Positions 6,060 to 21,566 of a stretch of DNA of 35,102 bases are shown here, piece by piece (position 1 is the first letter of the stretch; each line of letters begins with the position of its first letter). The translations under genes were made by a program, and so were the position numbers. The notes under the pieces were generated by a model that was given only the letters and a program-made list of their open reading frames with translations, had not been told where the DNA came from and ran no database searches. The stretch spans positions 1-35,102 of the forward strand of contig JAEUPB010000047.1 of the NCBI GenBank assembly GCA_016789955.1, written 5' to 3'. Source of the stretch: Rubrivivax sp. (GTDB taxonomy: Bacteria; Pseudomonadota; Gammaproteobacteria; Burkholderiales; Burkholderiaceae_C).

Positions 6060-6077
6060 CTTGCGGCGGCGCTGCCG

Positions 6078-6869
6078 TCAGGCGAACCGCACCGACACCC
6101 CACCCAGCCCCTCGATGCGCGCCTCGAAGGCGTCCCCGGCGCGGGCCGGCACCATGGGCCCCAGCGCACCGGTGAGCACGATGTCGCCGGCACGCAGCGG
6201 GTCGCCGCGGCGCGCCAGCGTGCGCGCGAGCCACGCCGCGGCGTTCAGCGGGTGGCCCATGCAGGCGCTGCCGACGCCCTCGCTGACGCTCTCGGCGCCC
6301 CGCGTCATCACCATGCGGGCCTCGCGCAGCGCGATGCGGTCCAGCCGCACGGGGTCGGCGCCGAGCACGAACGCGGCCGCCGACGCGTTGTCGGCGATGG
6401 TGTCGAAGAGCCCGATCTTCCAGTCGGCGATGCGGCTGTCGACGATCTCGAGCGCTGCGAGCGCGAAGGCGCTGGCGCGGATCACGTCGACCACCGTCGC
6501 GTCGGGGTTCGGCACGTCGCGCTCCAGCACCAGCGCGACCTCGGCCTCGACCTTCGGCTGGATCAGCGTGGCCAGCGGCACGGCATCGCCGTCGCCGTGG
6601 CTGGTCGATGCCCACAGGTCGCCGAAGTCCGGCGAGTCCACGCCGAGCTGCCGCTGCACCGCCAGCGACGTGAGCCCGATCTTGCGGCCGACGACACGGT
6701 CGCCGCCGCGCACGCGGCGGTCGCGGTTGATGCGCTGGATGGCGTAGGCCTCGTCGGCGGTGGCGGGCGCGCCGGCGGCCGCGGCGGCCTCGCGCAGCGG
6801 CGCGATCGGCCGGCCGGTGGCGGCGGCCTCCCACAGCAGGTCGGCCAGGGTGATGCGGGGATCGGTCAT
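6078..6869 (-). CDS. 2-oxopent-4-enoate hydratase-like protein (MhpD/FAH superfamily)
   Basis: A 263-residue member of the fumarylacetoacetase superfamily, hydratase/decarboxylase branch. Visible motifs are GRKIGLTS (residues about 62-69), the metal-binding Glu pair in KVEAEVALVLERD, and DSRIADWKI followed by DN-A. Relatives (MhpD, XylJ, DmpE) add water to 2-hydroxypenta-2,4-dienoate after meta ring cleavage. It is the last gene of the operon, and its start overlaps the stop of the NIPSNAP gene as ATGA (6866-6869). No ring-cleavage dioxygenase is present in the operon, so the substrate may be a dienoate formed another way or the enzyme may hydrolyse or decarboxylate a 2-oxo acid. Confidence 0.8.
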   Translation of the reverse strand: MTDPRITLADLLWEAAATGRPIAPLREAAAAAGAPATADEAYAIQRINRDRRVRGGDRVVGRKIGLTSLAVQRQLGVDSPDFGDLWASTSHGDGDAVPLATLIQPKVEAEVALVLERDVPNPDATVVDVIRASAFALAALEIVDSRIADWKIGLFDTIADNASAAAFVLGADPVRLDRIALREARMVMTRGAESVSEGVGSACMGHPLNAAAWLARTLARRGDPLRAGDIVLTGALGPMVPARAGDAFEARIEGLGGVSVRFA

Positions 6870-7222
6870 GGCAATTCGTCAGGGGGTTGGGTCATGGGTT
6901 CGGGCAGCCGGCCGACGCCGGGCACGTGCTGCAGCAGCCGGTTGTGCTGCGAGACCACCCAGCCCTGCTCGCCGGTGGCGCGGCGGTAGCCCAGCCAGCG
7001 CGCGTCGGCGTACAGGCGCTCGCGCCGCCGCTCGCGGTCGGCGGCGTCGGCGTAGGCCCACTGGTGCACGAAGGTATCGAGCTCGCCGTCGGCGCCGGTC
7101 CAGTACGCCAGCGGCTCGCCCAGGTGCTCGCGCATCAGTGGCAGCGCCTGCTCGAGGTGCCACGCGAGGTAGCGCGCCAGGCAGCCGGGGCGAATGACGT
7201 AGGTGCGTTCGTCGACCAGCAT
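6866..7222 (-). CDS. NIPSNAP-family protein (copy 1)
   Basis: A 118-residue ferredoxin-like (dimeric alpha/beta barrel) protein of the NIPSNAP family. It opens with MLVDERTYVIRPGCLARYL and has the family patterns GELDTFVHQWAYADAADRERRR and a late VSQHNRLL. These small proteins often sit in catabolic operons and are thought to act as accessory or monooxygenase-fold proteins, with no reaction established for most. A paralogue lies at 16945-17268 in the same operon, with the matching WAYEDAADRDRRR. ATG 7222 was chosen because it matches the start of the paralogue (MLIDLRIYTFHPG); the longer frame is a shadow of the Bug gene. The stop overlaps the hydratase start. Confidence 0.75.
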   Translation of the reverse strand: MLVDERTYVIRPGCLARYLAWHLEQALPLMREHLGEPLAYWTGADGELDTFVHQWAYADAADRERRRERLYADARWLGYRRATGEQGWVVSQHNRLLQHVPGVGRLPEPMTQPPDELP

Positions 7223-7227
7223 CGCCG

Positions 7228-8196
7228 TCAGTCGGTGCTGCGGATGCCGCGGCTGCGCAGGAACGGGCCCCACTTCTGCAGGTCGCGCTTCACGGTGTCG
7301 GCCAGCTCCGCGGGCGTGCTGCGTAGCGGCTCGAGGCCGAGCGCCGCGTAGCGCTCCTTCACCGCCGGCAGCTCGAGGATGCGCATCAGCTCGCGGTGCA
7401 CGCGCTGCGCCGCATCGGCCGGCATGCCCGGCGGCCCGAACACCGCGTACCAGGCATCGGCCTCGAAACCGGGCAGGCCCGACTCGGCCATCGTCGGCAC
7501 CTGCGGCCACGCCGGCAGCCGCTGGCGCGTGGTCACGGCCAGCGCGCGCAGGCGGCCGTCGCGCACCAGCGGCGCGACCGCGGCCACGCTGTTGAACATC
7601 ACGTTCACGCGGCCGGCCATCAGGTCGGGCATCGCCTGGCCCGAGCCCTTGTACGGCACGTGCGTGGCCTGCACGGCCGCCAGGCTCTCCAGCAGCGCGC
7701 CGGCGATGTGCTGCATCGTGCCGTTGCCGGCCGACGCGTAGGTCAGCGCGCCGGGCTGCGCGCGGGCGGCGGCCAGCACGTCGGCCACGCTCTTCAGCGG
7801 GCCGGCGGCGGCACTCACCAGCATCAGCGGCGTGCCGGCCACCAGCGCGATCGGCGTGAAGTCGCGCTGCGGGTCGTACGGGAAGTTCGGGTACAGCGCC
7901 GGGTTGATCACGTGCGTGGCCGCGGTGGTCACGAGCAGCAGGCCGCTGTCGGGTGCGGCCTTGGCCACCACGTCGGCGCCCACGGTGCCCCCGGCGCCGC
8001 CCTTGTTCTCGACCACCACGGTGCCGTAGGCCCCGGCCATCTCCTGCGCGAACAGCCGCGCCAGGATGTCCGGCGCGCCGCCGGTCCCGTAGGGCACGAC
8101 CAGGCGCAGCGTGCCGCCCTGCGCCCGCGCCGGCGCTGCGGCCGTGCCGGCGAGCGCGGCCGCCAGCAGCCCTTCGAGTGCGTCGCGGCGGTTCAT
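7228..8196 (-). CDS. Bug-family (TctC-type) extracytoplasmic solute-binding protein
   Basis: A 322-residue periplasmic binding protein. The N-terminus MNRRDALEGLLAAALAGTAA with AxA near residue 24 is a signal peptide with a twin-Arg pair. Family hallmarks follow: RLVVPYGTGGAPDILARL, VVVENKGGAGGTVGAD, YASAGNGTMQHIAG, HVPYKGSGQAMPDLMAG and the NVMFNS strand. Bug proteins bind small carboxylates and normally feed TctAB, or act as sensors. No tctA or tctB gene is in the window, so this is an orphan, which is common in Burkholderiales. Its start overlaps the SDR stop as ATGA (8193-8196), and it lies 5 nt before the NIPSNAP gene, so it shares the Liv transporter operon. Confidence 0.88.
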   Translation of the reverse strand: MNRRDALEGLLAAALAGTAAAPARAQGGTLRLVVPYGTGGAPDILARLFAQEMAGAYGTVVVENKGGAGGTVGADVVAKAAPDSGLLLVTTAATHVINPALYPNFPYDPQRDFTPIALVAGTPLMLVSAAAGPLKSVADVLAAARAQPGALTYASAGNGTMQHIAGALLESLAAVQATHVPYKGSGQAMPDLMAGRVNVMFNSVAAVAPLVRDGRLRALAVTTRQRLPAWPQVPTMAESGLPGFEADAWYAVFGPPGMPADAAQRVHRELMRILELPAVKERYAALGLEPLRSTPAELADTVKRDLQKWGPFLRSRGIRSTD

Positions 8197-8921
8197 ACGA
8201 GCCTCCGGCCGCCGTCGACGTCGAGCACGGCGCCGGTGATGAAGGAGTTGCTCGCGCACAGCAGCACCGCGGCGGCGATGTCCTCCGGCGTGCCGACGCG
8301 GCGCACCGGCACGATCTCGGCCATCGCCTGGTAGGTGCGCTGGCGTGCGTCGTCGGGCAAGGCGCGGTCCCAGTACGGCGTGTCGATGAAGCCGGGCGAG
8401 ACGGCGTTCACGCGCACCGGCGCCAGCTCGCGCGCCAGCGGCCCGACCATCGCGTGCAGCGCGCCGTTGCCCGCCGCCATCGCCGCCATGCCGGGGATCG
8501 CCGCGCGCGCGGCGGCGCCGGTGACCCAGGTGATCGAGCCGTCGGCCAGGTGCGGCAAGGCGGCCATCGTCGTGCGCTGGAAGGGCCAGAACTTGCCCTC
8601 GAAGGTCTTGCGCAGCGCGGGCTCGTCGAGGCTGCGGTAGGGGCCCACCGCGCTCGTGCCGCCGATCGACACCACGAGGTGCCGGAAGGCGCCGTGGCGC
8701 GCGTACGCGGCGCGCAGCGCGGCCTCGTCGCCGGCATCGACGCTCTCGCCGACGGTGCCCGCGGGCAGCTGCCGCAGCGCCTCGGCCACGCGCTCGGCCG
8801 AGCGGCCGGCCACGATCACCGTGGCGCCCGCCTCGGCGAGCGCGCGTGCGCACGCCAGGCCGATGCCCGAGGTGCCGCCGTAGACCCAGGCCTTCTGGCC
8901 TGCCAGGGGAAGGGTGTTCAT
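8193..8921 (-). CDS. SDR-fold protein lacking the YxxxK catalytic pair
   Basis: A 242-residue short-chain dehydrogenase fold. The cofactor motif GGTSGIG is at residues 15-21, and the C-terminal PEDIAAAVLLCASNSFITGAV and DVDGG patterns are normal. The active-site helix reads GMAAMAAGNGALHAM (144-158): where classical SDRs have Tyr and Lys four residues apart, this protein has Met148 and Asn152. The preceding Ser strand reads ITWVTGAAAR, also without the usual Ser. It is therefore probably not a classical dehydrogenase; it could be a divergent reductase or a binding subunit. It lies 4 nt after the Rossmann gene and overlaps the Bug gene start. Fold confidence is high; activity is doubtful. Confidence 0.85.
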   Translation of the reverse strand: MNTLPLAGQKAWVYGGTSGIGLACARALAEAGATVIVAGRSAERVAEALRQLPAGTVGESVDAGDEAALRAAYARHGAFRHLVVSIGGTSAVGPYRSLDEPALRKTFEGKFWPFQRTTMAALPHLADGSITWVTGAAARAAIPGMAAMAAGNGALHAMVGPLARELAPVRVNAVSPGFIDTPYWDRALPDDARQRTYQAMAEIVPVRRVGTPEDIAAAVLLCASNSFITGAVLDVDGGRRLV

Positions 8922-8925
8922 CGTG

Positions 8926-9561
8926 TCAGGCTCCGCGTCGGAGGAGATGGAAGGCGTGGTCGCGCGTCAGGCCCATGCGGTACGCGCCGAGGATCCACAG
9001 CAGCGCCAGCGGCTCGAGCAGCCGCGCCAGCTCGAGCGGGCCGGCGTCGATGGCCTCGAAGCCGATCGCCGTGGCGAGGTCGGCCACCACGGCCTTGGCG
9101 GCCGGGTCGTCGCCGGCGACGTACATCGCCGCGTGGCGCCCGGCCAGCACCGGGTCGTCCATCACGTTGAAGCCGGTCGAGTTGAAGGCCTTCACCACGC
9201 GCGCGCCGGGCGCCCAGCGCTGCACCTGCTCGCCGCCGGAATCGGTGTGGCCGACCTGCAGCTTCAGGTCCGCGCCGATCGGGTTGGTGGCGTCGATCAG
9301 CACGCGGCCGTCGAGCGCGCCGCACTCGGCCAGCGCGGCCTGCGTGGTGGGCCACGGCGTGGCCAGCAGCACCGCGTCGGCGTCGCGGCAGGCCTCGGCG
9401 TTGGTGGCCAGCCGGCCGCGGCCGGCCGTCTGCATCACCAGGCCCTGGTACTTCTCGCGCGCCGGGTCGCGCACGCCGAAGGCGATGTCGTGCCCGGCCG
9501 CAGCCCAGCGCTTGCCGAGCGTGCCGCCGACGTTGCCGGCGCCGATGATGGCGATCTTCAC
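8926..9561 (-). CDS. NADP oxidoreductase, F420-reductase-like Rossmann protein (copy 1)
   Basis: A 211-residue protein starting with GTG (9561) as VKIAIIGAGNVGGTLGKRWA, a clear dinucleotide-binding GxGxxG. The rest matches the NADP-oxidoreductase/F420-dependent (FNO-like) family: VLLATPW, IDATNP, GHTDSGGEQVQRWAPGARVVKAFNS and EPLALLW. FNO proteins transfer hydride between F420 and NADP in archaea and actinobacteria; Burkholderiales are not known for F420 synthesis, so in this context the partner is more likely a different substrate. The start overlaps the stop of the AMP-ligase-like gene as GTGA. A paralogue with the same central block is at 16294-16920. Confidence 0.8.
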   Translation of the reverse strand: MKIAIIGAGNVGGTLGKRWAAAGHDIAFGVRDPAREKYQGLVMQTAGRGRLATNAEACRDADAVLLATPWPTTQAALAECGALDGRVLIDATNPIGADLKLQVGHTDSGGEQVQRWAPGARVVKAFNSTGFNVMDDPVLAGRHAAMYVAGDDPAAKAVVADLATAIGFEAIDAGPLELARLLEPLALLWILGAYRMGLTRDHAFHLLRRGA

Positions 9562-11219
9562 GGGGTGGCCCCTCCTGCACCGGCCAGCAGCCGTTGCGCG
9601 TAGCGGTTGCGCACGATCGCGCGGCGCAGCGCCAGCGCCGGCGTCAGCTCGCCGTTGGCCGCCTCCAGCGCGCGCGGCAGCAGCACCGCGCGCACGATGC
9701 GCGCCGCCTGCGGCAGCCGCTGGTTGGCCTCGGCCACCGCGGCGTCGACGAGGCGGCGCACCTCGGTGCTCTCGGCGTAGCTGCGCAGCGTGGTGTAGGC
9801 CAGCCCGTGGCCGCGCGCCCAGTCGCGCAGCGTCACCTCGTCCAGCTCCACCAGCGCCGTCACGCCGGTGGCCGGCCCGCCGACGGCCACGGCCTGGTTG
9901 ATGTACGGGCTGGTCATCAGCTCGGCCTCCACGGTGGCCGGCGCCAGGTGCGTGCCGTCGGGCAGCGTCAGCAGGTCCGCCGCGCGGCCCACCAGGTGCA
10001 GCTCGCCGCCCTGCAGGTGCACGAGGTCGCCGGTGGCCACCGCCGTGCCGTCCACGGTGACGACGAGGCGGCCGTCGGCGCCGATCGCCGGTGCATACGG
10101 CTCGAAGACCTTCAGCGCGGGCTCCGCCGCCTGCGCGAACACGGCCACCGGCCCGGCCGCCTCGGCCAGCGCGTACAGGCCGCGCGTGTCGATGCCCAGC
10201 CGCGCCAGGAAGCGCGCGCTGGCGGGTGCCATGCGTTCGTAGCCGGTCAGCACCGCGCGGCACGCGCCCAGGCCGAGCGCGTCGGCCACCGGGCGGCCGA
10301 CCAGCGTGCGCAGCAGCGCGCCGGGCCGCTCGCGCGCCGACCAGCGCTGGATCAGCGCGCGCCGCCAGCCGCCGGCGCGGCTGGCGCGGGCCGCGGTCTC
10401 GCGGCGCAGCCGGTCGAGCAGCCGCGCGGGGATCGCCACCACCTGCGGCGCGCATTGCCGCATCTCGGGCACGCCGGGCAGGCGGTCCTCGCCGAAGCAG
10501 GCCACCGTGCCCAGCAGCACGGGCGCGACGACGGCGTGGAAGTGGCCGATCGGGTCGGCCAGCCCGAACAGGCTGACGCAGCGCTCGCCGTCGCGCAGCC
10601 CCAGCGGCGCGCGCGCGGCCACCTGCCGGCGCAGCGTGGCCTGCGACACCGGCACGCAGCGCGGTTCGCCGAACACGCCGGCGCTGAAGAGCACCACCGC
10701 GGGCGGCGGCGTGGCCGCGGCCTCGGGCGCCAGCGCGGGCGTTGCGTCCAATGTGGACAGCGGCCGCACCCGCAGGTGCTGGTAGCCGCGCGTGCCCTTG
10801 GGGTCGATCACCCACACCGCGCGCAGCCCGTCCAGCCGCGTCTGCATGTCGGCGATCTTGTCGACCTGCTCCTGGTCCTCGGCGACGAAGGCCACCACGC
10901 CGGCCTGCTGCGCCTGGTTGGCCACGCCGCCCGGGGGCAGGGCGGGGTTCAGCAGCACCGGCACGAGGCGCGCGCGCTGGCAGGCCAGCACCGCGAGCAC
11001 GGCCTCGACACGCGCGCCGCTGACCACGCCCACCGCCTCGCCCGGCTGCAGCCCGGCGGCGCGCAGGCCCGCGGCCATCTCGCCCACGCGCGCCTCGGCG
11101 TCGCGCCAGCACAGCCGCTGCCAGATGCCGTGGCGCTTCTGCAGGTACGCCAGCGCGTCGCCCGCGCCGGCGGCGCGGCGTGCGAGCTCGGCGTCGAGCG
11201 TGTCGGTCAGCTCAGCCAC
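9558..11219 (-). CDS. Degenerate AMP-binding (acyl-CoA synthetase-like) protein
   Basis: A 553-residue homologue of long-chain acyl-CoA synthetases of the kind found in Liv-type operons. Domain order is normal (large N-domain, hinge near 410, small C-domain), and ATGDLV (395-400) and GRAADLL (411-417) are present. Key residues are lost: the nucleotide P-loop, usually TSGTTGxPKG, reads FSAGVFGEPRC (178-188), and the C-terminal catalytic Lys in GELTPTLK is Ala in GELTPALALRR (523-533). Adenylation is therefore unlikely as in normal ligases; a role in binding an acyl group or assisting the transporter is possible. It overlaps livF by 13 nt and the next gene by GTGA, so it is tightly co-expressed. 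Confidence 0.75.
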   Translation of the reverse strand: MAELTDTLDAELARRAAGAGDALAYLQKRHGIWQRLCWRDAEARVGEMAAGLRAAGLQPGEAVGVVSGARVEAVLAVLACQRARLVPVLLNPALPPGGVANQAQQAGVVAFVAEDQEQVDKIADMQTRLDGLRAVWVIDPKGTRGYQHLRVRPLSTLDATPALAPEAAATPPPAVVLFSAGVFGEPRCVPVSQATLRRQVAARAPLGLRDGERCVSLFGLADPIGHFHAVVAPVLLGTVACFGEDRLPGVPEMRQCAPQVVAIPARLLDRLRRETAARASRAGGWRRALIQRWSARERPGALLRTLVGRPVADALGLGACRAVLTGYERMAPASARFLARLGIDTRGLYALAEAAGPVAVFAQAAEPALKVFEPYAPAIGADGRLVVTVDGTAVATGDLVHLQGGELHLVGRAADLLTLPDGTHLAPATVEAELMTSPYINQAVAVGGPATGVTALVELDEVTLRDWARGHGLAYTTLRSYAESTEVRRLVDAAVAEANQRLPQAARIVRAVLLPRALEAANGELTPALALRRAIVRNRYAQRLLAGAGGATP

Positions 11220-12016
11220 CGCTTGGCCGCCCGGTAGTGCTTGACGTCGCGGAAGCTCTTGCGCGCGCCGCTGCCGGCGGCGCCGCCGCCGAGGTAGAAG
11301 TTCTTCACGTCGGGGTTGTCGGCCAGCGCCGCGGCCTCGCCCTCCAGCATGATGCGGCCGCCCTCGAGCACGTAGCCGAAGTCGGCGTGCGCCAGCGCCA
11401 CGCGCGCGTTCTGCTCGACGACGAGCAGGCTCACGCCGGTGTCGCGGTTGATGCGCCGCAGCGTGCCGAAGATCTCGGCCACCACCTTGGGCGCCAGGCC
11501 GAGCGAAGGTTCGTCCAGCACGATCAGCGACGGCCGCGCCACCAGCGCGCGGCCGATCGCGAGCATCTGCTGCTCGCCGCCGCTGAGGTAGCCGCAGACG
11601 TCGCGCTGCCGCTCCTTCAGCCGCGGGAAGAACGCGTAGACCTCGTCGAAGGTCTTCGGCACCGGGTGGCGGCCGCCCAGCGCGTTGCAGGCGGCGACCA
11701 GGTTCTCCTCCACCGTCATGTCGGTGAACAGCTGCCGCCCCTCGCGCACGTGGTACAGGCCGCGCCGCGCCAGCAGGTGCGGCGCCAGGCGCGTGGTGTC
11801 GTGGCCGTCGAACATCACCTTGCCGCCGGTGATCGCGCCCTTCTCCAGCGGCAGCAGCCCGGTCACGGCCTTCAACGTGGTCGTCTTGCCGGCGCCGTTG
11901 GAGCCCAGCAGCGCCACGATGCGCCCGCGCGGCACCCGCACCGAGAGCCCCTGCAGCACCTGCAGCACGCCCTGGTAGGTGACGTCGAGGCTGCTGACCT
12001 GCAGCGCCAGGTCCAT
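11207..12016 (-). CDS. livF: LivF-type ABC transporter ATP-binding protein
   Basis: A 269-residue ABC ATPase. Walker A is GSNGAGKTT (38-46), signature LSGGEQQ (144-150), Walker B LIVLDEP (164-170) and EQN (201-203), where Gln replaces the switch His as usual in LivF. With LivG it powers import of a branched-chain-amino-acid-type or aromatic-acid substrate through LivHM. The protein carries a C-terminal extension after NFYLGGG that ends SFRDVKHYRAAKRWLS, longer than E. coli LivF (237 residues); basic tails of this kind are common in Liv operons that also hold an AMP-ligase homologue, as here. It starts 10 nt after the binding-protein gene and overlaps the ligase-like gene. Confidence 0.9.
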   Translation of the reverse strand: MDLALQVSSLDVTYQGVLQVLQGLSVRVPRGRIVALLGSNGAGKTTTLKAVTGLLPLEKGAITGGKVMFDGHDTTRLAPHLLARRGLYHVREGRQLFTDMTVEENLVAACNALGGRHPVPKTFDEVYAFFPRLKERQRDVCGYLSGGEQQMLAIGRALVARPSLIVLDEPSLGLAPKVVAEIFGTLRRINRDTGVSLLVVEQNARVALAHADFGYVLEGGRIMLEGEAAALADNPDVKNFYLGGGAAGSGARKSFRDVKHYRAAKRWLS

Positions 12017-12026
12017 CGCGGCGCGC

Positions 12027-13241
12027 CTACTTGCGGTCGACGTTGAGCCAGCCCGACACCGGCGTCGGCACGAAGTCCTTCGCGGCCTCGAAGCGCACCA
12101 CCTGCGCCACCGGGATGCTGTTGCCGGAGAACGTGACCGGCGCGCCGACGATGCCGCCGGTGTCCCAGTTCTTCGTCGCGCGCAGCGCGTCGCGCAGGCC
12201 CTCGCCGGTGAACGGCTTGTTCTGCGCGATCGCCTCCTCGGCCGCCTTGGCCAGCAGCATCATCGACATCCACCCCTGCATGTAGTAGATGTCGGGCACG
12301 CCGTCGTACTTGGGGTCGCGCTTGCGGCGGATCTCGTCGATCGCCTTCAGCATCGCGCCGCTGGCGCCCGTGGTGCTCCACGCGTAGTTGCTCACGCCGA
12401 GGAAGCCGTCGGCCGCCGGCCCGGCGCGCTTGAGCAGCGTGCGCGAGCTCTCCCAGAACGTGCCCATGAACTGCGTCTCGAGCTTGTAGTCGCGCGCGAG
12501 CTTGATCACCTCGGTGAAGATCGGCGCGCCGCCGAAGCCGTGGATCAGCGTGTAGTCCGGCCGCGCCTGGCGCAGCTTGATCGTCTCGGCGGCGACGTCC
12601 ACGTCGCGGAACTTCAGCTCGGCCACCAGCACGAGGTCGATGCCCAGCGCGGCGGTGCGCTTCCTGATGTGCTCCAGCGGGTCGCGACCGAACTCCGACG
12701 CGCTGTGGATCACCGCGAGCCTGGGCCTGCCCGAGCCCTTGAAGTTGGCCTTGACGTACTGCAGCAGCACGTCGGCGGCTTCGCTGTAGTTCGGGCCGCT
12801 CATGAAGTGGAAGCCGTACTTCGAGGAGTCCTCCAGGTCCGACGCGTACGACGTGGAGGTCATCAGCACCTTGTAGCGCTCGTTGTTCTCCTGCGCGGCG
12901 GCGCGCACGAAGCCGGTGCCGTCGCCGAACACCGCCACCGGCTTGTCGGCGGCCATGAACTTCTTCCAGCCGGCGATTGCCTGGTCCACCTTGTACTGGG
13001 TGTCCTCGACGAGGAAGCGGATCCTGCGGCCCTTCACGCCGCCCTTGCCGTTGACGTGCTCGATGTAGTCCTTCATGCCCTCGAGCTGGTCCTTCGCGAC
13101 GGCGGCGAACGGGCCGGTGAGCGGCAGCGTGGCGGCGAAGACGATGTCGTTGGCCTGGGCCTGGGCCTGCGCCGGCAGCGCCGGCAAGGCCAGCGGCGCT
13201 GCGGCGGCGAGGGCCACCACGTGGCGGCGGGTGAGCGTCAT
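12027..13241 (-). CDS. Liv-type ABC transporter substrate-binding protein
   Basis: A 404-residue periplasmic binding protein of the leucine/isoleucine/valine type (type I fold). The signal MTLTRRHVVALAAAAPLALP with AQA-AQA cleavage sites carries a twin-Arg pair. The mature part begins NDIVFAATLPLTGPFAAVAK, the usual first strand, followed by RRIRFLVEDTQYK and later PDIYYMQGW. Members of this group with long mature chains often bind aromatic or other carboxylates instead of leucine, so the ligand is uncertain. ATG 13241 was chosen because AGGAG lies 8 nt upstream and it gives a complete signal peptide; the longer frame would hide the signal. It lies 25 nt after livM. Confidence 0.88.
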   Translation of the reverse strand: MTLTRRHVVALAAAAPLALPALPAQAQAQANDIVFAATLPLTGPFAAVAKDQLEGMKDYIEHVNGKGGVKGRRIRFLVEDTQYKVDQAIAGWKKFMAADKPVAVFGDGTGFVRAAAQENNERYKVLMTSTSYASDLEDSSKYGFHFMSGPNYSEAADVLLQYVKANFKGSGRPRLAVIHSASEFGRDPLEHIRKRTAALGIDLVLVAELKFRDVDVAAETIKLRQARPDYTLIHGFGGAPIFTEVIKLARDYKLETQFMGTFWESSRTLLKRAGPAADGFLGVSNYAWSTTGASGAMLKAIDEIRRKRDPKYDGVPDIYYMQGWMSMMLLAKAAEEAIAQNKPFTGEGLRDALRATKNWDTGGIVGAPVTFSGNSIPVAQVVRFEAAKDFVPTPVSGWLNVDRK

Positions 13242-13266
13242 GCGTGTCTCCTGTGGGTGTCGTTCG

Positions 13267-14343: not shown

Positions 14344-15212
14344 ATGCGTTCGATCTCCTTGCGGCCGAACAGCCCGTGGGGCCGCACCAGCAGCACCAGC
14401 AGCACCACCGCGTAGGGCATCACCTCGCGCCAGCTGCCGCCCAGGTAGGCGCCGGTCATCGCCTGCAGCCAGCCGATCACGAGACCGCCGACGATCACGC
14501 CGGCCAGGCTGTCGAGCCCGCCGACGATCAGCACCGCCAGCACCGAGAGCGCGAGGTCGCCCAGGTGCGGCGTGAGGTTGTTCAGCGCCGCCAGCAGCAC
14601 ACCGGCCAGCGCGCCGGTGGAGGCCGCCAGCCCCCAGGTCGCGGCCGAGATCGCCGGCACGTTGATGCCCACCGCATAGGCGTTGCCCGGGCTGGAGGCC
14701 GCGGCGCGCATCGCCACGCCGCCGCGCGTGTAGCGGAACCAGGCCAGGCACGCGAGCACGATCGCGAGGCTGACGACGAAGGTCCAGAAGATCCCGCCGG
14801 GCAGGAGCATGTCGCCGATGAAGATCGGCTTGCGCGGCAGCAGCTCGGGCAGCGCGCGCTGGTCGGGCCCGAACGCCAGCCCGGCCGCGCCCTTGAGGAT
14901 CAGCCCGAGGCCCACGGTGGCCATCACGATCGACAGCGTCGGCTGCCCGGCCAGCGGCCGCAGCACCACGCGCTCGACCAGCGCGCCGAGCGCGAAGCCG
15001 GCCGCCACCGCCGCCGCCAGCCCCAGCGACCAGTGCAGCCCGGCCATCTGCGTGACGGCGAGGAACACGTAGGCGCCGACCATCATCAGCTCGCCCTGCG
15101 CGAAGTTGAAGACGCCGGTGCCCTTGAACACGAGCACGAAGCCGAGCGCCACCAGCGCGTACATGCCGCCCGAGGCGAGGCCGACGAGCGAGTACTCGAC
15201 AAACAAGTTCAT
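14340..15212 (-). CDS. livH: LivH-type ABC transporter permease
   Basis: A 290-residue permease beginning MNLFVEYSLVGLASGGMYALVALG, the typical LivH start, followed by FKGTGVFNFAQGELMMVGAY and the coupling-loop region TRGGVAMRAAASSPGNAYAVGIN. The C-terminal VIVGGLDSLAGVIVGGLVIG matches the duplicated motif found also in LivM. It forms the membrane channel with LivM and is energised by LivG and LivF. Its ATG overlaps the livG stop by 4 nt, and its stop overlaps the livM start by 4 nt. Confidence 0.92.
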   Translation of the reverse strand: MNLFVEYSLVGLASGGMYALVALGFVLVFKGTGVFNFAQGELMMVGAYVFLAVTQMAGLHWSLGLAAAVAAGFALGALVERVVLRPLAGQPTLSIVMATVGLGLILKGAAGLAFGPDQRALPELLPRKPIFIGDMLLPGGIFWTFVVSLAIVLACLAWFRYTRGGVAMRAAASSPGNAYAVGINVPAISAATWGLAASTGALAGVLLAALNNLTPHLGDLALSVLAVLIVGGLDSLAGVIVGGLVIGWLQAMTGAYLGGSWREVMPYAVVLLVLLVRPHGLFGRKEIERI

Positions 15213-15976
15213 CTGGCCTCGCCCAGGTACGCCTCGATCACCGCCGGATCCGCCGCCACCTCGGCCGGCGTGCCCGAGGCCAGGCGCTGGCCGAAGTTCA
15301 GCACGTGGATCTGGTCCGACAGGTCCATCACCATGCCGATGTCGTGCTCGATCAGCAGCACCGTCACGTCCCACTCCTCGCGCACGTCGAGGATGTAGCG
15401 CGACATGTCCTCCTTCTCCTCGCGGTTCATGCCGGCCACCGGCTCGTCGAGCATCAGCAGTCGCGGCTTCATCGCCAGCGCGCGCGCCAGCTCCACGCGC
15501 TTCTGCAGCCCGTAGCTGAGCGCGGAGACCGGCGCGTCGCGCCAGTCGGCCAGATGCAGCAGGTCGAGGATGCGCTCCTCGATCTCGCGCCGCAGCTCGG
15601 CCTCTTCGCGCGCGGCGCGGCCGGCGTACCACGCGGCCGCCAGCAGCCCGGTGGAGAGCGTGTGGTGAGCGCCGAGCTTGATGTTGTCCAGCACCGTCAG
15701 GCCGCGGAACAGCGCGATGTTCTGGAACGTGCGCGCCATGCCCAGCGCGGCGCGCCGGTTCGGCTTCACGCCGGTGATGTCGGCGCCGTCGAAGCGCACG
15801 CCGCCCTGCTGCGGGCGGTAGAAGCCCGAGATCACGTTGTACAGGCTGGTCTTGCCGGCGCCGTTGGGGCCGATCACCGAGGTCACCGTGCCCGGCTCGA
15901 CGGTGATCGTCACGTCGGTGAGCGCCTTCACGCCGCCGAACGCGAGCGACACGCCCTGCACCGCGAGCAGGCTCAT
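15209..15976 (-). CDS. livG: LivG-type ABC transporter ATP-binding protein
   Basis: A 255-residue ABC ATPase with Walker A GPNGAGKTS (36-44), the Q-loop ARTFQNIALF, a signature LSYGLQKRVE (153-162, the LivG form of LSGGQ), Walker B LLMLDEP (173-179) and the switch His in IEHDIGMVM (His211). The long insert after NIKLGAHH is typical of LivG. It is preceded by the muconolactone-isomerase-like gene, whose TGA overlaps this ATG (15973-15976), and followed by livH with the same kind of overlap. Confidence 0.92.
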   Translation of the reverse strand: MSLLAVQGVSLAFGGVKALTDVTITVEPGTVTSVIGPNGAGKTSLYNVISGFYRPQQGGVRFDGADITGVKPNRRAALGMARTFQNIALFRGLTVLDNIKLGAHHTLSTGLLAAAWYAGRAAREEAELRREIEERILDLLHLADWRDAPVSALSYGLQKRVELARALAMKPRLLMLDEPVAGMNREEKEDMSRYILDVREEWDVTVLLIEHDIGMVMDLSDQIHVLNFGQRLASGTPAEVAADPAVIEAYLGEAR

Positions 15977-16284
15977 CTCGCCGGGCCGCCGTGTTCCGGC
16001 GCGAACAGCGCCGTGTAGCCGGTCCACGGCAGGAGCCGCGAGACGTCGAAGGCGATCAGCCCGTCGCGCACCATCGGCAGCCGCGCCAGCGCCGCCTGCG
16101 CGTCGGCCAGGCTCTCGCACTCGAGCGTGACCAGCGAGCCGGGCCGGTCCGGGCACATCTGGATGCTGCGCACCACGCCTTCGCTGAGCAGCTGGTGCGC
16201 GGCCCGGGCCTCGGCGGCGGCGTGCGCGGCCAGCTGTTCCGGCGTGGTGCCCGGCAGGCGGCGCGAGAGCGCGACGAATTGCAC
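15973..16284 (-). CDS. Muconolactone delta-isomerase-like small protein
   Basis: A 103-residue ferredoxin-like protein. The pattern LVTLECESLADAQAALARLPMVRDGLIAFDVSRLLPW matches the second half of muconolactone isomerases (family pattern: SIFDVES...L...LPLF...I.VTPLARHP). MIases shift a double bond in the beta-ketoadipate pathway as a decameric ring. The first half is less typical, so it may be a related dimeric alpha/beta-barrel protein with another substrate. It lies 9 nt after the second Rossmann gene and overlaps livG by 4 nt, so it belongs to the same transcript. Confidence 0.6.
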   Translation of the reverse strand: MQFVALSRRLPGTTPEQLAAHAAAEARAAHQLLSEGVVRSIQMCPDRPGSLVTLECESLADAQAALARLPMVRDGLIAFDVSRLLPWTGYTALFAPEHGGPAR

Positions 16285-16293
16285 CGCCAGCCC

Positions 16294-16920
16294 CTAGCGC
16301 CGCAGCAGCCCGAAGGCGATGCCGCGGCCCATCTTCTGCACGATGGCGAGCTTGATCCACACCATCGCCGCCGGCTCGAGGTAGCGCGCGTCGGCCAGCC
16401 CGCCCAGGTCCAGCGGCTCGAAGCCGAGGTCGGCCGCCAGCCCCGCGGCCACGGTCTTCGCGCCGGCGTCGCTGCCGCAGTACACCATCGCCGCGCGGCC
16501 GCCCGGGTAGGCGGGCTGGGCCATGTTCTCCCAGCCGGTGGTGTTGAAGATCTTCACCACCTTCGCGCCCGCGGCCCAGCGCTGCACCTGCTCGGCGCCG
16601 CTGTCGGTGTGGCCGAGCGCGAGCCCGAACGCGGGCGTCAGCGGGTTGGTGGCGTCCAGCAGCGGCTTGCCGGCGAAGTCGCCCGCCGCGCGCAGCGCCT
16701 CCTCGGTGCCGCCCCAGGGCGTGGCCAGCACCACCGCGTCGGCGGCGGCCACGGCCGGCGCGATCGGGGCCGCGGCGGCGCCCGGCGTGCCGGCCAGCGC
16801 GGCGCGCACCTTGTCGCTGCCGGGGTTGCGTGCGGCGTAGGTGACGGCATGGCCCTGGGCGGCCCAGCCGCGGCCCAGCGCCTGGCCGACGGGGCCGGCG
16901 CCGATGATGGCGATCTTCAT
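16294..16920 (-). CDS. NADP oxidoreductase, F420-reductase-like Rossmann protein (copy 2)
   Basis: A 208-residue paralogue of the protein at 8926-9561. It starts MKIAIIGAGPVGQALGRGWA with the GxGxxG loop at residues 7-12, then VVLATPWGG, DATNPLTP and GHTDSGAEQVQRWAAGAKVV, then KIFNTTGWENM. The shared GHTDSG-EQVQRW block shows a common origin, but the N-terminal cofactor surroundings differ (AARNPGSDK against GVRDPAREK), suggesting different roles or partners. It lies 24 nt after a NIPSNAP gene and 9 nt before the MIase-like gene. Confidence 0.8.
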   Translation of the reverse strand: MKIAIIGAGPVGQALGRGWAAQGHAVTYAARNPGSDKVRAALAGTPGAAAAPIAPAVAAADAVVLATPWGGTEEALRAAGDFAGKPLLDATNPLTPAFGLALGHTDSGAEQVQRWAAGAKVVKIFNTTGWENMAQPAYPGGRAAMVYCGSDAGAKTVAAGLAADLGFEPLDLGGLADARYLEPAAMVWIKLAIVQKMGRGIAFGLLRR

Positions 16921-16944
16921 CTCGCGGTGCCTTTCTCTCGACGC

Positions 16945-17268
16945 TCAGCGGGCCCAGGCCCGCGGCGAGAACGCGGTCGGCTTCAGCAGCCGGTTCTCCT
17001 GGTGCGCGATCCACGGCAACGCGATCGCGCCCAGCCGCTGCCACTCGGGGTCGGCCCACAGCGCGGCGCGGCGGCGGTCGCGGTCGGCCGCGTCCTCGTA
17101 GGCCCAGGCCTGGATCAGCTGGTTCAGCACCCCGGTCTCGCTGGTGCTGTAGAAGATGCAGGTGCCGCAGTGCTTCGTCTGCAGCGGCAGGATCTCGGCC
17201 TCGCTGAGCTTGAGGAACTCGCCCAGCTTGCCGGGGTGGAAGGTGTAGATGCGCAGGTCGATCAGCAT
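16945..17268 (-). CDS. NIPSNAP-family protein (copy 2)
   Basis: A 107-residue NIPSNAP protein: MLIDLRIYTFHPGKLGEFL at the start, GVLNQLIQAWAYEDAADRDRRR in the middle and AHQENRLLKP near the end. It is a paralogue of 6866-7222. In this half of the operon the NIPSNAP gene stands directly before a Rossmann gene, and both families are repeated at the far end, so duplication of a NIPSNAP-Rossmann pair is likely. Enzymatic function is not established for the family. Confidence 0.8.
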   Translation of the reverse strand: MLIDLRIYTFHPGKLGEFLKLSEAEILPLQTKHCGTCIFYSTSETGVLNQLIQAWAYEDAADRDRRRAALWADPEWQRLGAIALPWIAHQENRLLKPTAFSPRAWAR

Positions 17269-17289
17269 GGTGTGGGTGCCTCGTGGTGC

Positions 17290-17838
17290 TCAGCCCTGCA
17301 CGCCGACCATGCCCGGGTTCCAGCCCTTGTAGAACTTCTCGTACACGTCGGGCGGCACGACGATGCCGGTGTGCGGGTCGCCGCCGTGGTCGAAGATGGC
17401 GACCATGCAGCCGTCGTGCGCGTCGAGGTTCTCGAAGGTGCGGAACACGCCCGCCGGCACGCTGATCACGTCGAAGGGCGCCAGCTCGAGCGACTCCTCC
17501 AGCGCCTCGCCCCAGTAGACGCGGAAGCGCGCGTTCAGCGGCATGAAGACCTCGTTGTACGGATGCGAGTGCACCGTGGGCCGGATGCCGGGGCTCAGCG
17601 TGCTGATCGACAGGTGGAAGTTGTGCGGCTGCGCGATCGGCGCCGGCCCGCCCAGCCGGCCCGGCGAGACCACGTACGAGACGCTGCGCTTGCCGGCCTG
17701 CTGCTTCAGGTCGGGGAAGGCGCCGGGGTCGCCCTCGCGCTCGGCGAAGCGCGCCACGCGCGCCAGCATCTCGGCGCGCGAGCACGGCGCGCTGTGGCCC
17801 GGCGTGCGCAGGTGTTCGGGGCGGACGGCAGGGGTCAT
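17290..17838 (-). CDS. Cupin-domain protein
   Basis: A 182-residue single-cupin protein. The first cupin motif is HSHPYNEVFMPLNARFRV (90-107), with His90, His92 and Glu96 as metal ligands. The second motif reads VPAGVFRTFEN (127-137), where Arg or Phe stands at the place of the last His ligand. Metal binding may therefore be incomplete, and a ring-cleaving dioxygenase role is not supported. Small cupins near CoA ligases can be isomerases, decarboxylases or binding proteins. It overlaps the CoA ligase stop as ATGA (17835-17838). Confidence 0.8.
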   Translation of the reverse strand: MTPAVRPEHLRTPGHSAPCSRAEMLARVARFAEREGDPGAFPDLKQQAGKRSVSYVVSPGRLGGPAPIAQPHNFHLSISTLSPGIRPTVHSHPYNEVFMPLNARFRVYWGEALEESLELAPFDVISVPAGVFRTFENLDAHDGCMVAIFDHGGDPHTGIVVPPDVYEKFYKGWNPGMVGVQG

Positions 17839-19958
17839 GCGGGCTCTCCGGTCGGGGCGGGCGCGCCGACGACCAGCGCGTCCAGTGCGTACGCGCCCTC
17901 GGGCCGCGCCAGCACGGGGTTGAGTTCGAGGCCGGCCACGGTGTCGCGGCTGGCCCAGGCGATGGCCGACAGCCGCGCCACCTGCTCGGCCAGCGCGTCG
18001 AGGTCGGCCGCCGGCGCACCGCGCCAGCCGCGCAGCAGCGCGGCCACGCGCGTCTCGGCCAGCATCGCGCGCGCGGTGGCGTGGCTCACCGGCGCCAGCC
18101 GCACCGACACGTCGCCGAGCAGCTCGGTCAGCACGCCGCCGGCGCCCACGGTGACCACCGGCCCGAACACCGGGTCGCGCTGCGTGCCCACCAGCACCTC
18201 CACGCCGCCCTGCAGCTGCCGCGCGACGAGAAAGCCCTCGAGCCGCGCGTGCGGCAGGCGCGCGGCCACACGCTGCCGCATCGCCGGCAGCGCCGCGCGC
18301 AGCGCCGCCTCGTCGGTCAGGCCCAGCGCCACGCCGCCGGCCTCGGTCTTGTGCGCGATGTCGGGCGAGACGATCTTGAGCACCACCGGCCAGCCGATGG
18401 CCTGCGCGGCGGCGACCGCTTCGTCGGCATCGTGCACCCGCCGCTCGGGCGCGAAGGCGATGCCGCGTGCGGCCAGCGCACGCTTCGCGTCGGCCTCGGT
18501 GGCCAGCGGGCCCTCCAGCGCCGTGGCCGAAGCTGCTTCCCGCGCCACGCCAACCGGATCGGCGTGAGCGGCCATCGGCAACAGCGCCGCCAGCGACCGC
18601 ACCGCGGCCGTCGGGTCGGCGTAGACCGCGACGCCGTGCGCTTCCAGGTCGGCGGTGATCGCCGCATCGGCCAGCCCGACCGCGGCGAACGGCGTGGCCG
18701 CGTGGCGCTGCCGCAGCGCCAGCAGCGGGGCGTGCAGCTGCGCCCAGTGCGCCGGGTTGCGCGGGATGTGCGCCAGGTAGCACAGCACCGCGTCGTAGCG
18801 CCGCGCCTCCAGCGCCACGCCGGCGATGCGCGCGTAGGCCGACAGGTCGCCCAGGATGCCGGCCGAGGTGTCCACCGGGTTCTCGCCGGCGGCCAATGGC
18901 GCGATCGCCTGCACCACCTGCAGCGCGGCCGCGCCGATGCCCGGCAGCGCGAGCCCGTGCGCCTCGGCCGCGTCGGCCGCGAGCACACCGATGCCACCCG
19001 AGGTGGTGACCACCAGCAGGTCGCGGCCCTGGGATCCCGCGGTGTGCGGCGCCGCCTGCGGCAGCGCCACCGTGGCCGCGTACGCGGCCTCGACCAGCGC
19101 CTGCAGGCTACCCGCGCGCCAGGCGCCGGTTTCGCGCAGCACGGCGTCGAACACGCGGTCCTCGCCGGCCAGCGAGCCGGTGTGCGTGGCCGCGGCGGCG
19201 GCACCGGCCTGCGACACGCCCACCTTCATCGCCAGCACGCGCTTGCCGGCCGTGCGCGCCGCGTGCAGCGCGGCCGCGAGCTTGCGGCCATCGCGGCAGC
19301 CTTCGAGCGCCACGACGATCAGCTGCGTTGCCGCGTCGTGCACCAGGAAGTCGATGCAGTCGGCGACGTCGACATCGAGCTCGTTGCCGGTGGCGACGAA
19401 GTGCGAGAAGCCCAGCCCGCGCTGCTGCGCCAGGCCGAAGAAGTACGAGCCGAACGCGCCGCTCTGCGTGGCCACGCCCACGCCGCCGGCGGCGGGCCAG
19501 GCGCCGTCGAGCGCGGTGGCGAAGGTGCCGAAGAAGCCGTCGGCGGTGTTGAACAGCCCCAGGCTGTTCGGCCCCAGGATGCGCACGCCGGCGTCGCGGG
19601 CCATTCGCTGCAGCCGCTGCAGCGCCTCGGCCGCGCCGGCGCCTACGCCGAAGCCCGACGAGAACACCTGCAGCGCCCGGGCGCCGCGCGCGATGCACTC
19701 GGCCGCGACCGCCGGCACTTGCGCCGCCGCCACCGCGACGATGGCCTGGTCGATCCCGCCCGGCACGTCGGCCAGGCTCGGGTACGCCGGCACGCCCTGC
19801 ACCTCGGCGGCGGCCGGGTTCACCGGCAGGATGCGGCCGCGATAACCGCCCTTCTGCAGGAACGCGAGCGGCCGGCCGCCCACCTTGTTGGGGTCGGAGC
19901 TGGCGCCGACGATCGCCACCGAGCGCGGCCGGAACAGCGGGTCGAGCGGGTGGGCCAC
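17835..19958 (-). CDS. Acyl-CoA synthetase, ADP-forming (acetate-CoA ligase family)
   Basis: A 707-residue fused alpha-beta NDP-forming acyl-CoA synthetase. Domains in order: CoA-binding Rossmann (PRSVAIVGASSDPNKVGGRP, 11-30), succinyl-CoA-ligase-like flavodoxin domains (ILGPNSLGLFN near 150; THTGSLAGEDRVFD near 260; TTSGGIGVLAAD near 320), and a C-terminal ATP-grasp domain (from about 480; GWPVVLKIVSPDIAHKTEAGG and VGTQRDPVFGPVV). It would activate the imported acid to its CoA thioester with ATP, giving ADP and phosphate, and is the most credible activating enzyme of the operon since the AMP-type homologue lacks key residues. It lies 9 nt after the enoyl-CoA hydratase gene. Confidence 0.88.
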   Translation of the reverse strand: MAHPLDPLFRPRSVAIVGASSDPNKVGGRPLAFLQKGGYRGRILPVNPAAAEVQGVPAYPSLADVPGGIDQAIVAVAAAQVPAVAAECIARGARALQVFSSGFGVGAGAAEALQRLQRMARDAGVRILGPNSLGLFNTADGFFGTFATALDGAWPAAGGVGVATQSGAFGSYFFGLAQQRGLGFSHFVATGNELDVDVADCIDFLVHDAATQLIVVALEGCRDGRKLAAALHAARTAGKRVLAMKVGVSQAGAAAAATHTGSLAGEDRVFDAVLRETGAWRAGSLQALVEAAYAATVALPQAAPHTAGSQGRDLLVVTTSGGIGVLAADAAEAHGLALPGIGAAALQVVQAIAPLAAGENPVDTSAGILGDLSAYARIAGVALEARRYDAVLCYLAHIPRNPAHWAQLHAPLLALRQRHAATPFAAVGLADAAITADLEAHGVAVYADPTAAVRSLAALLPMAAHADPVGVAREAASATALEGPLATEADAKRALAARGIAFAPERRVHDADEAVAAAQAIGWPVVLKIVSPDIAHKTEAGGVALGLTDEAALRAALPAMRQRVAARLPHARLEGFLVARQLQGGVEVLVGTQRDPVFGPVVTVGAGGVLTELLGDVSVRLAPVSHATARAMLAETRVAALLRGWRGAPAADLDALAEQVARLSAIAWASRDTVAGLELNPVLARPEGAYALDALVVGAPAPTGEPA

Positions 19959-19967
19959 GGCGCGGCC

Positions 19968-20771
19968 TCAACGTCCCGTGAAGACCGGCCTGCGCTTCTC
20001 GACGAACGCGGCCACCGCCTCGGCGTGGTCGCGCGTGAGCTGGCTCTGCGTCTCCAGCGACACGCCGTACTCGAAGGTGGCCAGCGCCAGCGACTTCAGC
20101 GTGTGGTTGATCGCCTTCTTCGTGCCGCGCAGCGCGAACGGCGGCAGCTTCAGCAGCCGGCCGGTGAGGTCGTCGATGCGCGCATCGAGCTCGGCATCGG
20201 GCACCGCGTGCGTGATCAGGCCCAGCCGCGCCGCCTCCGGCGCGCCGATGGTGTCGCCCAGCAGCAGCAGCTCCTTGGCCTTCTGGAAGCCGATCAGCAT
20301 CGGCCACATCAGCGCGCCGCCGTCGCCGGCCACGAGGCCGACCTTGACGTGCGGGTCGCCGATCACCGCGGTCTCGGTGGCGATCGCGATGTCGGCGTAC
20401 ACCGCCAGCGTGGCGCCCAGCCCGGTGGCGGCGCCGTTGACCCGCGCGATCAGCGGCTTCTCGAGGTCGAGGATCGAATAGAACAGCGCGCGCGCCTCGT
20501 TCACGGTGTCGTTCCACAGCGTGCGGTCGGCGATCTTGTCGGCCATCGCGCGGATGTCGCCGCCCGACGAGAACGCGTCGCCGGCGCCGGTGAGCACGAC
20601 GATGTCGCTGCCCTCGTCGCGCTGGGCATCGGCGAACACGCGCGAGAGTTCGTTGTGCATGCGCACGTTGGCCGCGTTCTTCACCTCGGGGCGGTTCATC
20701 ACCACCGTCAGCACGCGGCCGCGGCGCTCGAAGCGCAGGTGCTCGTAGCGCTCGAACCAGGCGTCGGCCAT
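19968..20771 (-). CDS. Enoyl-CoA hydratase/isomerase family protein
   Basis: A 267-residue crotonase-fold protein. It has the oxyanion-hole motifs AFSSGGDIRAM (about 66-76) and GAATGLGATLAVYADIAIAT (about 113-132), and GDPHVKVGLVAGDGGALMWP. The two Glu residues of classical hydratases (as in GGGCELA and the later PExxLG) are not seen; the HVKVGLVAGDGG form belongs to a distinct subfamily whose reaction is less certain. It would act on the CoA thioester made by the adjacent ligase. Its ATG shares one base with the SDR stop (TGATG), so the two are coupled. Confidence 0.85.
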   Translation of the reverse strand: MADAWFERYEHLRFERRGRVLTVVMNRPEVKNAANVRMHNELSRVFADAQRDEGSDIVVLTGAGDAFSSGGDIRAMADKIADRTLWNDTVNEARALFYSILDLEKPLIARVNGAATGLGATLAVYADIAIATETAVIGDPHVKVGLVAGDGGALMWPMLIGFQKAKELLLLGDTIGAPEAARLGLITHAVPDAELDARIDDLTGRLLKLPPFALRGTKKAINHTLKSLALATFEYGVSLETQSQLTRDHAEAVAAFVEKRRPVFTGR

Positions 20772-21523
20772 CAGCGGCCCCCGGCCACGGGCAGCACCGT
20801 GCCCGTGACATACGACGCCGCGCCCGACAGCAGCCAGACGATGGCCTCGGCCACTTCCTCCGGCCGGCCGGCGCGCTGCATCGGCATGCGCGTGGCGTAG
20901 CGCTGCAGGCGGCCGGCGTCACCGGCCTCGGCGTGGATGTCGGTCTCGATCAGCCCGCAGGCCACCGCGTTGACGCGGATGCCTTCGGTGGCCACCTCGG
21001 ACGCCAGGCCGTAGTTGAAGGCCTCGAGCGCCGCCTTCGCCGCCGCGTAGTGCACCAGCTCGCCCGGCGAGCCCGTGCGCGAGGCCATGGACGACACGTT
21101 GACGATGGCGCCGCCGGCGCCGCCGTGCTTCGTCGACGCGCGCCGCACGAAGGCCTGCGCGCACAGGAACGCGGCGTAGACGTTGACCTCGAAGGTGCGC
21201 CGCAGCACCGCCGGCTCCAGCGCCTCCACGCGGCCGATGCGGCCGGGCACGCCGGCGTTGTTGACGAGGCCCGCCACCGGCCCCAGCTCGCGGGCCACGC
21301 GATCGAACAGCGCGGCCACCTGCTCCGGCTGCGACACGTCGGCCTGCATCGCGGCGGCGTGGCCGCCGGCACGCCGGATGTCCTCGACCACCGCGCCGGC
21401 CGCCGCCTCGTTGGCGACGTAGTTCACCGCCACCTGCCAGCCCGCGGCCGCCGCCCGCCGCGCCGTGGCCGCGCCGATGCCGCGGCCGGCGCCAGTGATC
21501 AGTAAGATGGGGGGTGGGGACAT
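20771..21523 (-). CDS. Short-chain dehydrogenase/reductase, classical
   Basis: A 250-residue classical SDR. The NAD(P) loop is TGAGRGIG (10-17), NNAG is at 88-91, the active-site Ser is in NVSSMAS (142-148), and Tyr159/Lys163 are in HYAAAKAALEAF. C-terminal ASYVTGTVLPVAGG is normal. It oxidises or reduces a hydroxy/keto group, probably on a pathway intermediate. It is the first gene of the 18-gene operon. ATG 21523 was chosen because the Rossmann strand follows at once; no Shine-Dalgarno sequence is visible before it. An upstream in-frame ATG (21580) would overlap the FNR-type box and is unlikely. Confidence 0.9.
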   Translation of the reverse strand: MSPPPILLITGAGRGIGAATARRAAAAGWQVAVNYVANEAAAGAVVEDIRRAGGHAAAMQADVSQPEQVAALFDRVARELGPVAGLVNNAGVPGRIGRVEALEPAVLRRTFEVNVYAAFLCAQAFVRRASTKHGGAGGAIVNVSSMASRTGSPGELVHYAAAKAALEAFNYGLASEVATEGIRVNAVACGLIETDIHAEAGDAGRLQRYATRMPMQRAGRPEEVAEAIVWLLSGAASYVTGTVLPVAGGR

Positions 21524-21566
21524 GGCGGCCGGGGGAGGTGCTGCTCCGGGCCACTCTAGGCGCGCC

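Follow-up and report, generated by a model that had tools for sequence, protein, structure and literature searches.

Several described systems resemble parts of the locus analysed here, an operon of 18 minus-strand genes at positions 6078 to 21523 of a 35,102-nucleotide (nt) stretch of DNA from Rubrivivax sp. (Burkholderiales; assembly GCA_016789955.1, contig JAEUPB010000047.1), which we call the window; its genes are numbered g01 to g18 in the order of transcription. The closest known proteins to g03 are ADP-forming acyl-coenzyme A (CoA) ligases, represented by 4-hydroxybutyrate–CoA ligase (8wzu), 3-hydroxypropionate–CoA ligase (9y43) and a dimethylsulfoniopropionate (DMSP) lyase (7cm9). It aligns with 8wzu over nearly the full length and has the HTG motif, but scores far under the model cut-offs of the named ADP-forming ligases. 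As in the tph operon, with its orphan TphC, a Bug-type binding protein without membrane subunits lies within a catabolic operon; unlike tph, the locus has 18 genes without a terephthalate dioxygenase. Liv importers linked to AMP-forming ligases share its importer order and a ligase-family gene adjoining livF, and a cluster of this kind is also present on contig C97 of our assembly; here, however, the motifs of that gene (g13) are lost in 4/4 orthologs and an ADP-forming ligase is found instead. The last gene, g18, is close in sequence to the MhpD/DmpE 2-hydroxypenta-2,4-dienoate hydratases, but falls under the equivalog cut-off, and the aldolase of those systems exceeds its own cut-off in only one of seven carriers of the cluster. 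A Variovorax plasmid (L110) also has adjacent short-chain dehydrogenase/reductase (SDR), ADP-forming ligase and crotonase genes, and its ligase is 46% identical to g03; in contrast to our locus, the SDR and crotonase are 32% and 35% identical, the ligase precedes the crotonase, and no cupin or NIPSNAP is annotated in the trio. No operon of such a gene set was among the matches listed in the open-access literature (titles and the starts of abstracts), which is no proof of absence in print, and the locus appears to be a combination of known families not found described. We propose, with slightly more confidence than doubt, that it is a single LysR-controlled operon, which would take up a small cyclic or branched acid, probably a monocarboxylic one, and degrade it by a CoA-dependent route. 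Its unusual points are an exchangeable importer cassette and a pair of conserved proteins that resemble enzymes but seem to have lost their active sites.

The assembly comprises 5.26 Mb in 116 contigs and is 79.6% complete; the window is its contig C79. Codon-usage gene calling on the window placed exactly 18 genes in 6078–21523, all on the minus strand. The junction gaps, in transcription order, are −1, 9, −4, 21, 24, 9, −4, −4, −4, 25, 10, −13, −4, 4, −4, 5 and −4 nt; nine of the 17 junctions overlap and the widest gap is 25 nt. This agrees with a first-pass annotation made from the sequence alone, which had counted 18 minus-strand genes, gaps of at most 25 nt and nine overlapping junctions, and the genes are predicted to form a single transcript. 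Families were assigned by Pfam and NCBIfam matches, with motifs where stated below. The operon opens with a classical SDR (g01, SDR1, PRK06123/YgfF-like; 20771–21523), a PRK07327-like member of the crotonase superfamily (g02; 19968–20771), the single-chain ADP-forming acyl-CoA ligase (g03; 17835–19958), a cupin (g04; 17290–17838), a first NIPSNAP protein (g05, NIPSNAP1; 16945–17268), an NpdG-like dinucleotide-binding protein (g06, NpdG1; 16294–16920) and a small YCII/MIase-like protein (g07; 15973–16284). The importer follows, with a LivG-type ATPase (g08; 15209–15976), LivH-type and LivM-type permeases (g09, 14340–15212; g10, 13267–14343), a Liv-type solute-binding protein (g11; 12027–13241) and a LivF-type ATPase (g12; 11207–12016). 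The distal genes encode an AMP-binding, acyl-CoA-ligase-like protein (g13; 9558–11219), a second NpdG-like protein (g14, NpdG2; 8926–9561), a PRK07041-like SDR (g15, SDR2; 8193–8921), a Bug/TctC-type solute-binding protein in an operon without a TTT membrane subunit (g16; 7228–8196), a second NIPSNAP protein (g17, NIPSNAP2; 6866–7222) and a member of the MhpD-like 2-keto-4-pentenoate hydratase family (g18; 6078–6869). A LysR-type regulator gene (5115–6059, plus strand; gene calling and family match) lies outside this range, convergent with the operon end.

A search for conserved gene order, proposed as a check in the first-pass annotation, found the order in part in seven other Burkholderiales genomes; the 18-gene set is therefore not a chance assembly. 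The loci are L031 (genome G453), L033 (G002), L036 (G175), L107 with L035 and L069 (G137), L032 (G448), L037 (G214) and L034; our own genome is G000. SDR1, crotonase, ADP-forming ligase and cupin follow one another completely in L031, L033, L034 and L036, and over two contigs in G137. In L033 a divergent LysR gene is followed by these four, NIPSNAP1, LivG-H-M, the Liv-type binding protein, LivF, g13, NpdG2, SDR2, the hydratase and Bug. The first G137 contig reads divergent LysR, SDR1, crotonase and ADP-forming ligase, and the second, joined to it by inference from the contig ends, cupin, Bug, NIPSNAP1, LivG-H-M, an extra SDR, the Liv-type binding protein, LivF, g13, NpdG2, SDR2, NpdG1, YCII, an SDR and Bug. 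L031 has the four genes, then NIPSNAP1, a lone Liv-type binding protein, NpdG1, YCII, an SDR2-type protein, Bug, NIPSNAP2, the hydratase and a convergent LysR; L034 has the same order from SDR1 to Bug, where the contig ends. In L036 a divergent LysR precedes the four genes, Bug, NIPSNAP1 and then other genes. The remaining two genomes are split. G448 has ADP-forming ligase, cupin, LivG-H-M, the Liv-type binding protein and LivF in L032, and g13, NpdG2, SDR2, a different Bug, the hydratase and an SDR on its contig C43, with no adjoining LysR. G214 has SDR1, crotonase and ADP-forming ligase on C70, and g13, NpdG2, SDR2, Bug, NIPSNAP2, the hydratase, an SDR, LysR and a second cupin on C31. The conserved core is SDR, crotonase, ADP-forming CoA ligase, cupin and NIPSNAP.

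The operon is rare and patchy, as the genome counts for the cupin and the ADP-forming ligase show. A cupin-peptide scan of a species-genome collection gave nine loci, seven in Burkholderiales metagenome-assembled genomes and two in Alphaproteobacteria. Cupins of at least 77% identity were found in 4/399 sampled genomes of the order, own included (34/399 at E 1e-10). Within the genus, 3/81 genomes, again including our own, had one at ≥81% identity, and a fourth (G214) had a 55% copy (9/81 at E 1e-15); the class-wide sample gave 1/369 at E 1e-35, which was our own genome. The ligase was matched in 17/61 genomes at E 1e-100, own included, and only G002 otherwise exceeded 50% identity. Plasmid searches with six of the proteins found the same set in none of the nine neighbourhoods opened (NpdG-like, SDR2 and g13 matches lie outside these nine). 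Acyl-CoA dehydrogenase genes lay beside or near the crotonase relative in four of the five plasmid crotonase neighbourhoods opened. Elsewhere in our own genome, on C114 (L149, 1–2390), an SDR, a crotonase and an acyl-CoA dehydrogenase gene are adjacent, by eye like a cyclohexanecarboxylate (bad/ali) cluster.

The regulator accompanies the cluster. LysR orthologs with 56–68% identity lie beside it in six of eight genomes, own included (window, L031, G214/L037, L033, L036 and G137/L107), and are divergent from SDR1 in L033, L036 and G137/L107. A palindrome, CCGATA-N5-TATCGG, is a candidate LysR operator (21592–21608, minus strand), 68 nt before the first start codon. It occurs some 60–80 nt before SDR1 in 7/7 readable loci, with two mismatches in the window, L031 and L146, one in L033 and none in L034, L036 and L107. 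The motif was drawn from all of these except L146, which was tested afterwards and had its best match 59 nt before SDR1. In the five loci scanned for it, the palindrome was the sole or best match within 14 to 35 kb; it is not in L037, which does not hold the SDR1 start. We infer that LysR may bind there. Between the palindrome and g01, at 21567–21580, lies a perfect TTGAT-N4-ATCAA, which we take to be the FNR-type consensus; the assembly contains three perfect sites, this one included, and a reversed control none. None of the other six loci has a perfect box; two-mismatch forms were seen in L031 (by eye) and L146, and none in L033, L034, L036 or L107. A second FNR-type site in the window, with one mismatch, lies at 26552–26565, and the other perfect sites of the assembly are inside a coding region (L149) and just before a metallo-beta-lactamase-like gene (L148, named by eye). 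A scan of positions 5000–22000 flagged a single terminator-like site, on the plus strand (2.4 expected), and nothing promoter-like; scans of this type are weak.

We analysed the core enzymes residue by residue. Classical SDRs have the active-site motif YxxxK, and g01 has YAAAK in 6/6 orthologs looked at. Enoyl-CoA hydratases use two catalytic Glu residues (Glu144 and Glu164 in the rat enzyme). In g02, GLGATLA and DPHVKVGLVAGDGG were found in 6/6 orthologs, so that both Glu residues are absent, their positions (placed by motif) being occupied by Thr and His; the Asp of GLVAGDGG is retained, and a comparable Asp is found in isomerase-type crotonases. Judged by these residues, g02 is not a classic hydratase. 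Its identity is 80–88% in five of the six other carriers searched. The ligase g03 has CoA-binding, flavodoxin-like and ATP-grasp domains and, in its HTG motif, the presumed catalytic His of ADP-forming ligases. It scored 320–366 bits with the named ligase models, compared to cut-offs of 567–1300, so its substrate cannot be read from these matches.

The cupin g04 scored 21.9 bits, under the Pfam cut-off of 27.2, and its relative in L107 clears the Cupin_2 cut-off. The HxHxxxE motif is intact, and the His of the second motif is replaced by Arg (Arg133 in g04) in 15/15 aligned sequences, paralogs included. A PDB sequence search with g04 gave no useful match, and an AlphaFold2 model from ten sequences was too poor for use (predicted local distance difference test score, 58.5). 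The ATGA overlap of g03 and g04 is also found in L031, L033 and L036, and is absent in L034. Two further types of cupin were observed. One, 51–54% identical to g04, adjoins a LysR gene (L107, 4129–4695; L037, 6607–7158). The other, at about 33%, has its own LysR, Bug and NmrA-like proteins in L105, L108 and L109 (own genome, G137 and G175; Pfam on L105 and L108 only), with an alpha/beta hydrolase beside it in L105 and L108.

Two proteins of the distal half resemble enzymes and have lost their active-site motifs. AMP-forming acyl-CoA ligases are marked by the P-loop TSGSTGxPK and a C-terminal catalytic Lys. g13 matches the AMP-binding family (PF00501, 3.4e-31). In all four orthologs aligned, Ala takes the place of the C-terminal Lys, and the P-loop sequence is SGGVCGDAR in two of them and SAGVFGEPR or GAGVHREPR in the others. 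It seems to be a conserved pseudo-ligase that looks catalytically dead. Its ratio of nonsynonymous to synonymous substitution rates was 0.48 and 0.57 in two comparisons (a crude Nei–Gojobori estimate at high GC), near the top of the range for the 16 genes measured and equalled or exceeded by the two values of g07 and by one each of g06 and g17; on this measure, g13 is still under constraint. The g13 paralog on C97 has an intact TSGSTGRPK, and there (L106) the paralogous Liv importer stands with this intact AMP-forming ligase motif and crotonases. In g15, the Tyr and Lys of YxxxK are replaced in 6/6 cluster homologs aligned, and the protein is probably catalytically altered or dead.

Of the two binding proteins, g11 had only distant, leucine-binding-like matches among solved structures. 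The solved proteins closest to g16 are terephthalate-binding ones. In TphC, T155, N197 and T242 contact the buried carboxylate of terephthalate, and P86 and Q150 shape or narrow the pocket (PMC8556258). All five are replaced in g16, with Met, Ser and Ala at the buried-carboxylate positions. With respect to these contacts g16 was rejected as a terephthalate binder, and the lack of the buried-carboxylate contacts favours a monocarboxylate as its ligand. Across 16 positions of the Bug pocket, the window, L031 and L037 are identical and L033 differs at one.

Several of the first-pass names need to be qualified. Pfam and NCBIfam recovered 17 of them; the eighteenth protein, g13, had been overlooked. 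The names cupin and MIase-like are weak, the first because of its score and the second because g07 passes the YCII cut-off (26.6 bits compared to 24) but fails that of MIase (23.3 compared to 26.7). "Crotonase" holds for g02 as a superfamily name but not in the sense of a classic hydratase, and of the "two SDRs", which both match SDR families, SDR2 looks catalytically dead. Partners and cofactors were searched for in seven carriers, all but the genome of L034. Incomplete assemblies limit the negatives that follow, although completeness reaches 99% for G453 and 97% for G002. The "F420-reductase-like" proteins do match the NpdG family, but g06 and g14 are both below the npdG cut-off and the use of F420 is doubtful: a match to the CofD family, needed for F420, was found in only one of the seven carriers and not in our own, 79.6% complete genome. 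Even that match is not specific, because the model also matches 10/14 controls, E. coli among them. The "MhpD-like hydratase" is a close relative of 2-oxopent-4-enoate hydratase (8ih6, 3e-84), but g18 scored 321 bits, under the equivalog cut-off of 350, and the standard partner, 4-hydroxy-2-oxovalerate aldolase, exceeded its cut-off in one of the seven carriers, not including our own genome. Aldolase matches under the cut-off occurred in 7/7 carriers and 14/14 controls and are uninformative. With CofD matched in one of seven carriers and the aldolase above its cut-off in one of seven, the names F420 and meta-cleavage are unlikely to fit the function in most carriers. Domain searches found no ring hydroxylase among the operon proteins and, at E 0.001, gave neither a thiolase nor an acyl-CoA dehydrogenase domain for any of the 18. 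The first-pass statement that oxygenase, thiolase and acyl-CoA dehydrogenase are lacking thus holds for the latter two, and for oxygenases as far as recognised families go, the function of the cupin being putative.

How might these proteins work together? In the reading we prefer, the acid would be captured by g11 and g16 and enter through the Liv importer, and g03 would convert it to its CoA thioester using ATP. The thioester might then be isomerised or hydrolytically cleaved, rather than hydrated, by g02, and SDR1 may oxidise or reduce an alcohol or ketone. The cupin, the NpdG-like, small NIPSNAP and YCII-like proteins and the MhpD-like hydratase could carry out further or side steps, with g13 and g15 as non-catalytic or altered accessory proteins retained with the importer. 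That the locus is a coupled, uncharacterised CoA-dependent uptake and catabolic operon, as first annotated, is supported by features computed directly: the partly conserved gene order, the accompanying LysR gene and the shared upstream palindrome. The tight junctions, the catalytic motif of g03, the active-site pattern of the crotonase and the Bug pocket speak for our reading as well, and the residue losses described above are likewise computed results. A number of observations weigh against it. The exact set of 18 genes recurs in none of the seven other genomes; the close core cupin was not found in G214, which has only the 55% copy, and the best crotonase of G448 is only 51% identical to g02. 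LysR is absent at the readable end in G448 and L034 (one end readable in each), and the palindrome in the window has two mismatches, a quality of match expected 0.35 times by chance across the window as a whole. The transport genes vary: L031 and L034 have no Liv importer and each a lone Liv-type binding protein; L036 has no Liv importer either, and past a 246-nt gap come other genes, including acyl-CoA dehydrogenases; the Bug protein in G448 is only 42% identical to g16; and that at the G137 operon end has another pocket, with Thr at the T155 position. The transport part of the operon is exchangeable. Dedication to one carboxylic acid, as the first-pass annotation had it, is plausible as an inference, the Bug pocket being conserved across four carriers, but the absence of the Liv importer from three clusters and a different Bug in two count against it.

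This variation raises the question of whether the operon is one unit. The core (g01–g05 with LysR) and a separately evolved transport and accessory cassette (Liv, g13, g14 and g15) could have been joined by proximity and serve different substrates. The core does occur without Liv and g13 in L031, L034 and L036, with no g13 match at 1e-40 in G453 or G175, and g13, g14 and the close SDR2 type share one set of five genomes (own, G214, G448, G002 and G137). However, the cassette has the same place and order in the window and L033, which come from two families of the order, and L031 and L034 retain a Liv-type binding protein at about that position. We consider two separate units unlikely, if still to be taken seriously. 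An aromatic, meta-cleavage-like route, with ring cleavage by the cupin and conversion of the resulting dienoate by the MhpD-like hydratase, would account for the closeness of g18 to 2-oxopent-4-enoate hydratase and for the HxHxxxE motif of the cupin, which has a distant homolog (31% identity) less than 5 kb from annotated dioxygenase and isomerase genes on a Cupriavidus plasmid. Against it stand the scarcity of the aldolase of the standard lower route, the lack of a ring hydroxylase, the Arg in place of the second-motif His and the sub-cut-off score of g18, and we regard such a route as quite improbable. Biosynthesis or detoxification instead of catabolism, to which the several proteins of putative function and the two that look catalytically dead might point, is the least probable of the alternatives: the combination of a complete importer and two binding proteins with an ADP-forming ligase and a LysR regulator is, by inference from family knowledge, typical of acid uptake and breakdown. 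More speculatively, and as a long shot, the operon could encode a new, oxygen-sparing route, in which the ADP-forming ligase would activate the acid and a crotonase of the Asp type, together with the Arg-variant cupin, would open it; the dead acyl-CoA ligase and dead SDR, kept with Liv, would be acyl-CoA sensing or coupling subunits that link import with the making of the CoA ester, and in this strain FNR-type control might be involved.

Upstream of the operon, more than 150 nt away and also on the minus strand, a gene at 21674–25003 encodes a 1109-residue protein with class III adenylate cyclase, AAA and TPR domains, and a PIN-domain gene (25024–25458) lies upstream of it.

Taken by themselves, family labels would probably mislead for at least four genes of this operon (g02, g06, g13 and g15). 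As a compact recurring module, it has a regulator, an operator candidate, binding proteins and core enzymes that are all directly testable, and the substrate could therefore be found by screening the two binding proteins. The presence of two conserved enzyme-like proteins without active sites in a catabolic operon poses the question of what accessory roles pseudo-enzymes may have in uptake.

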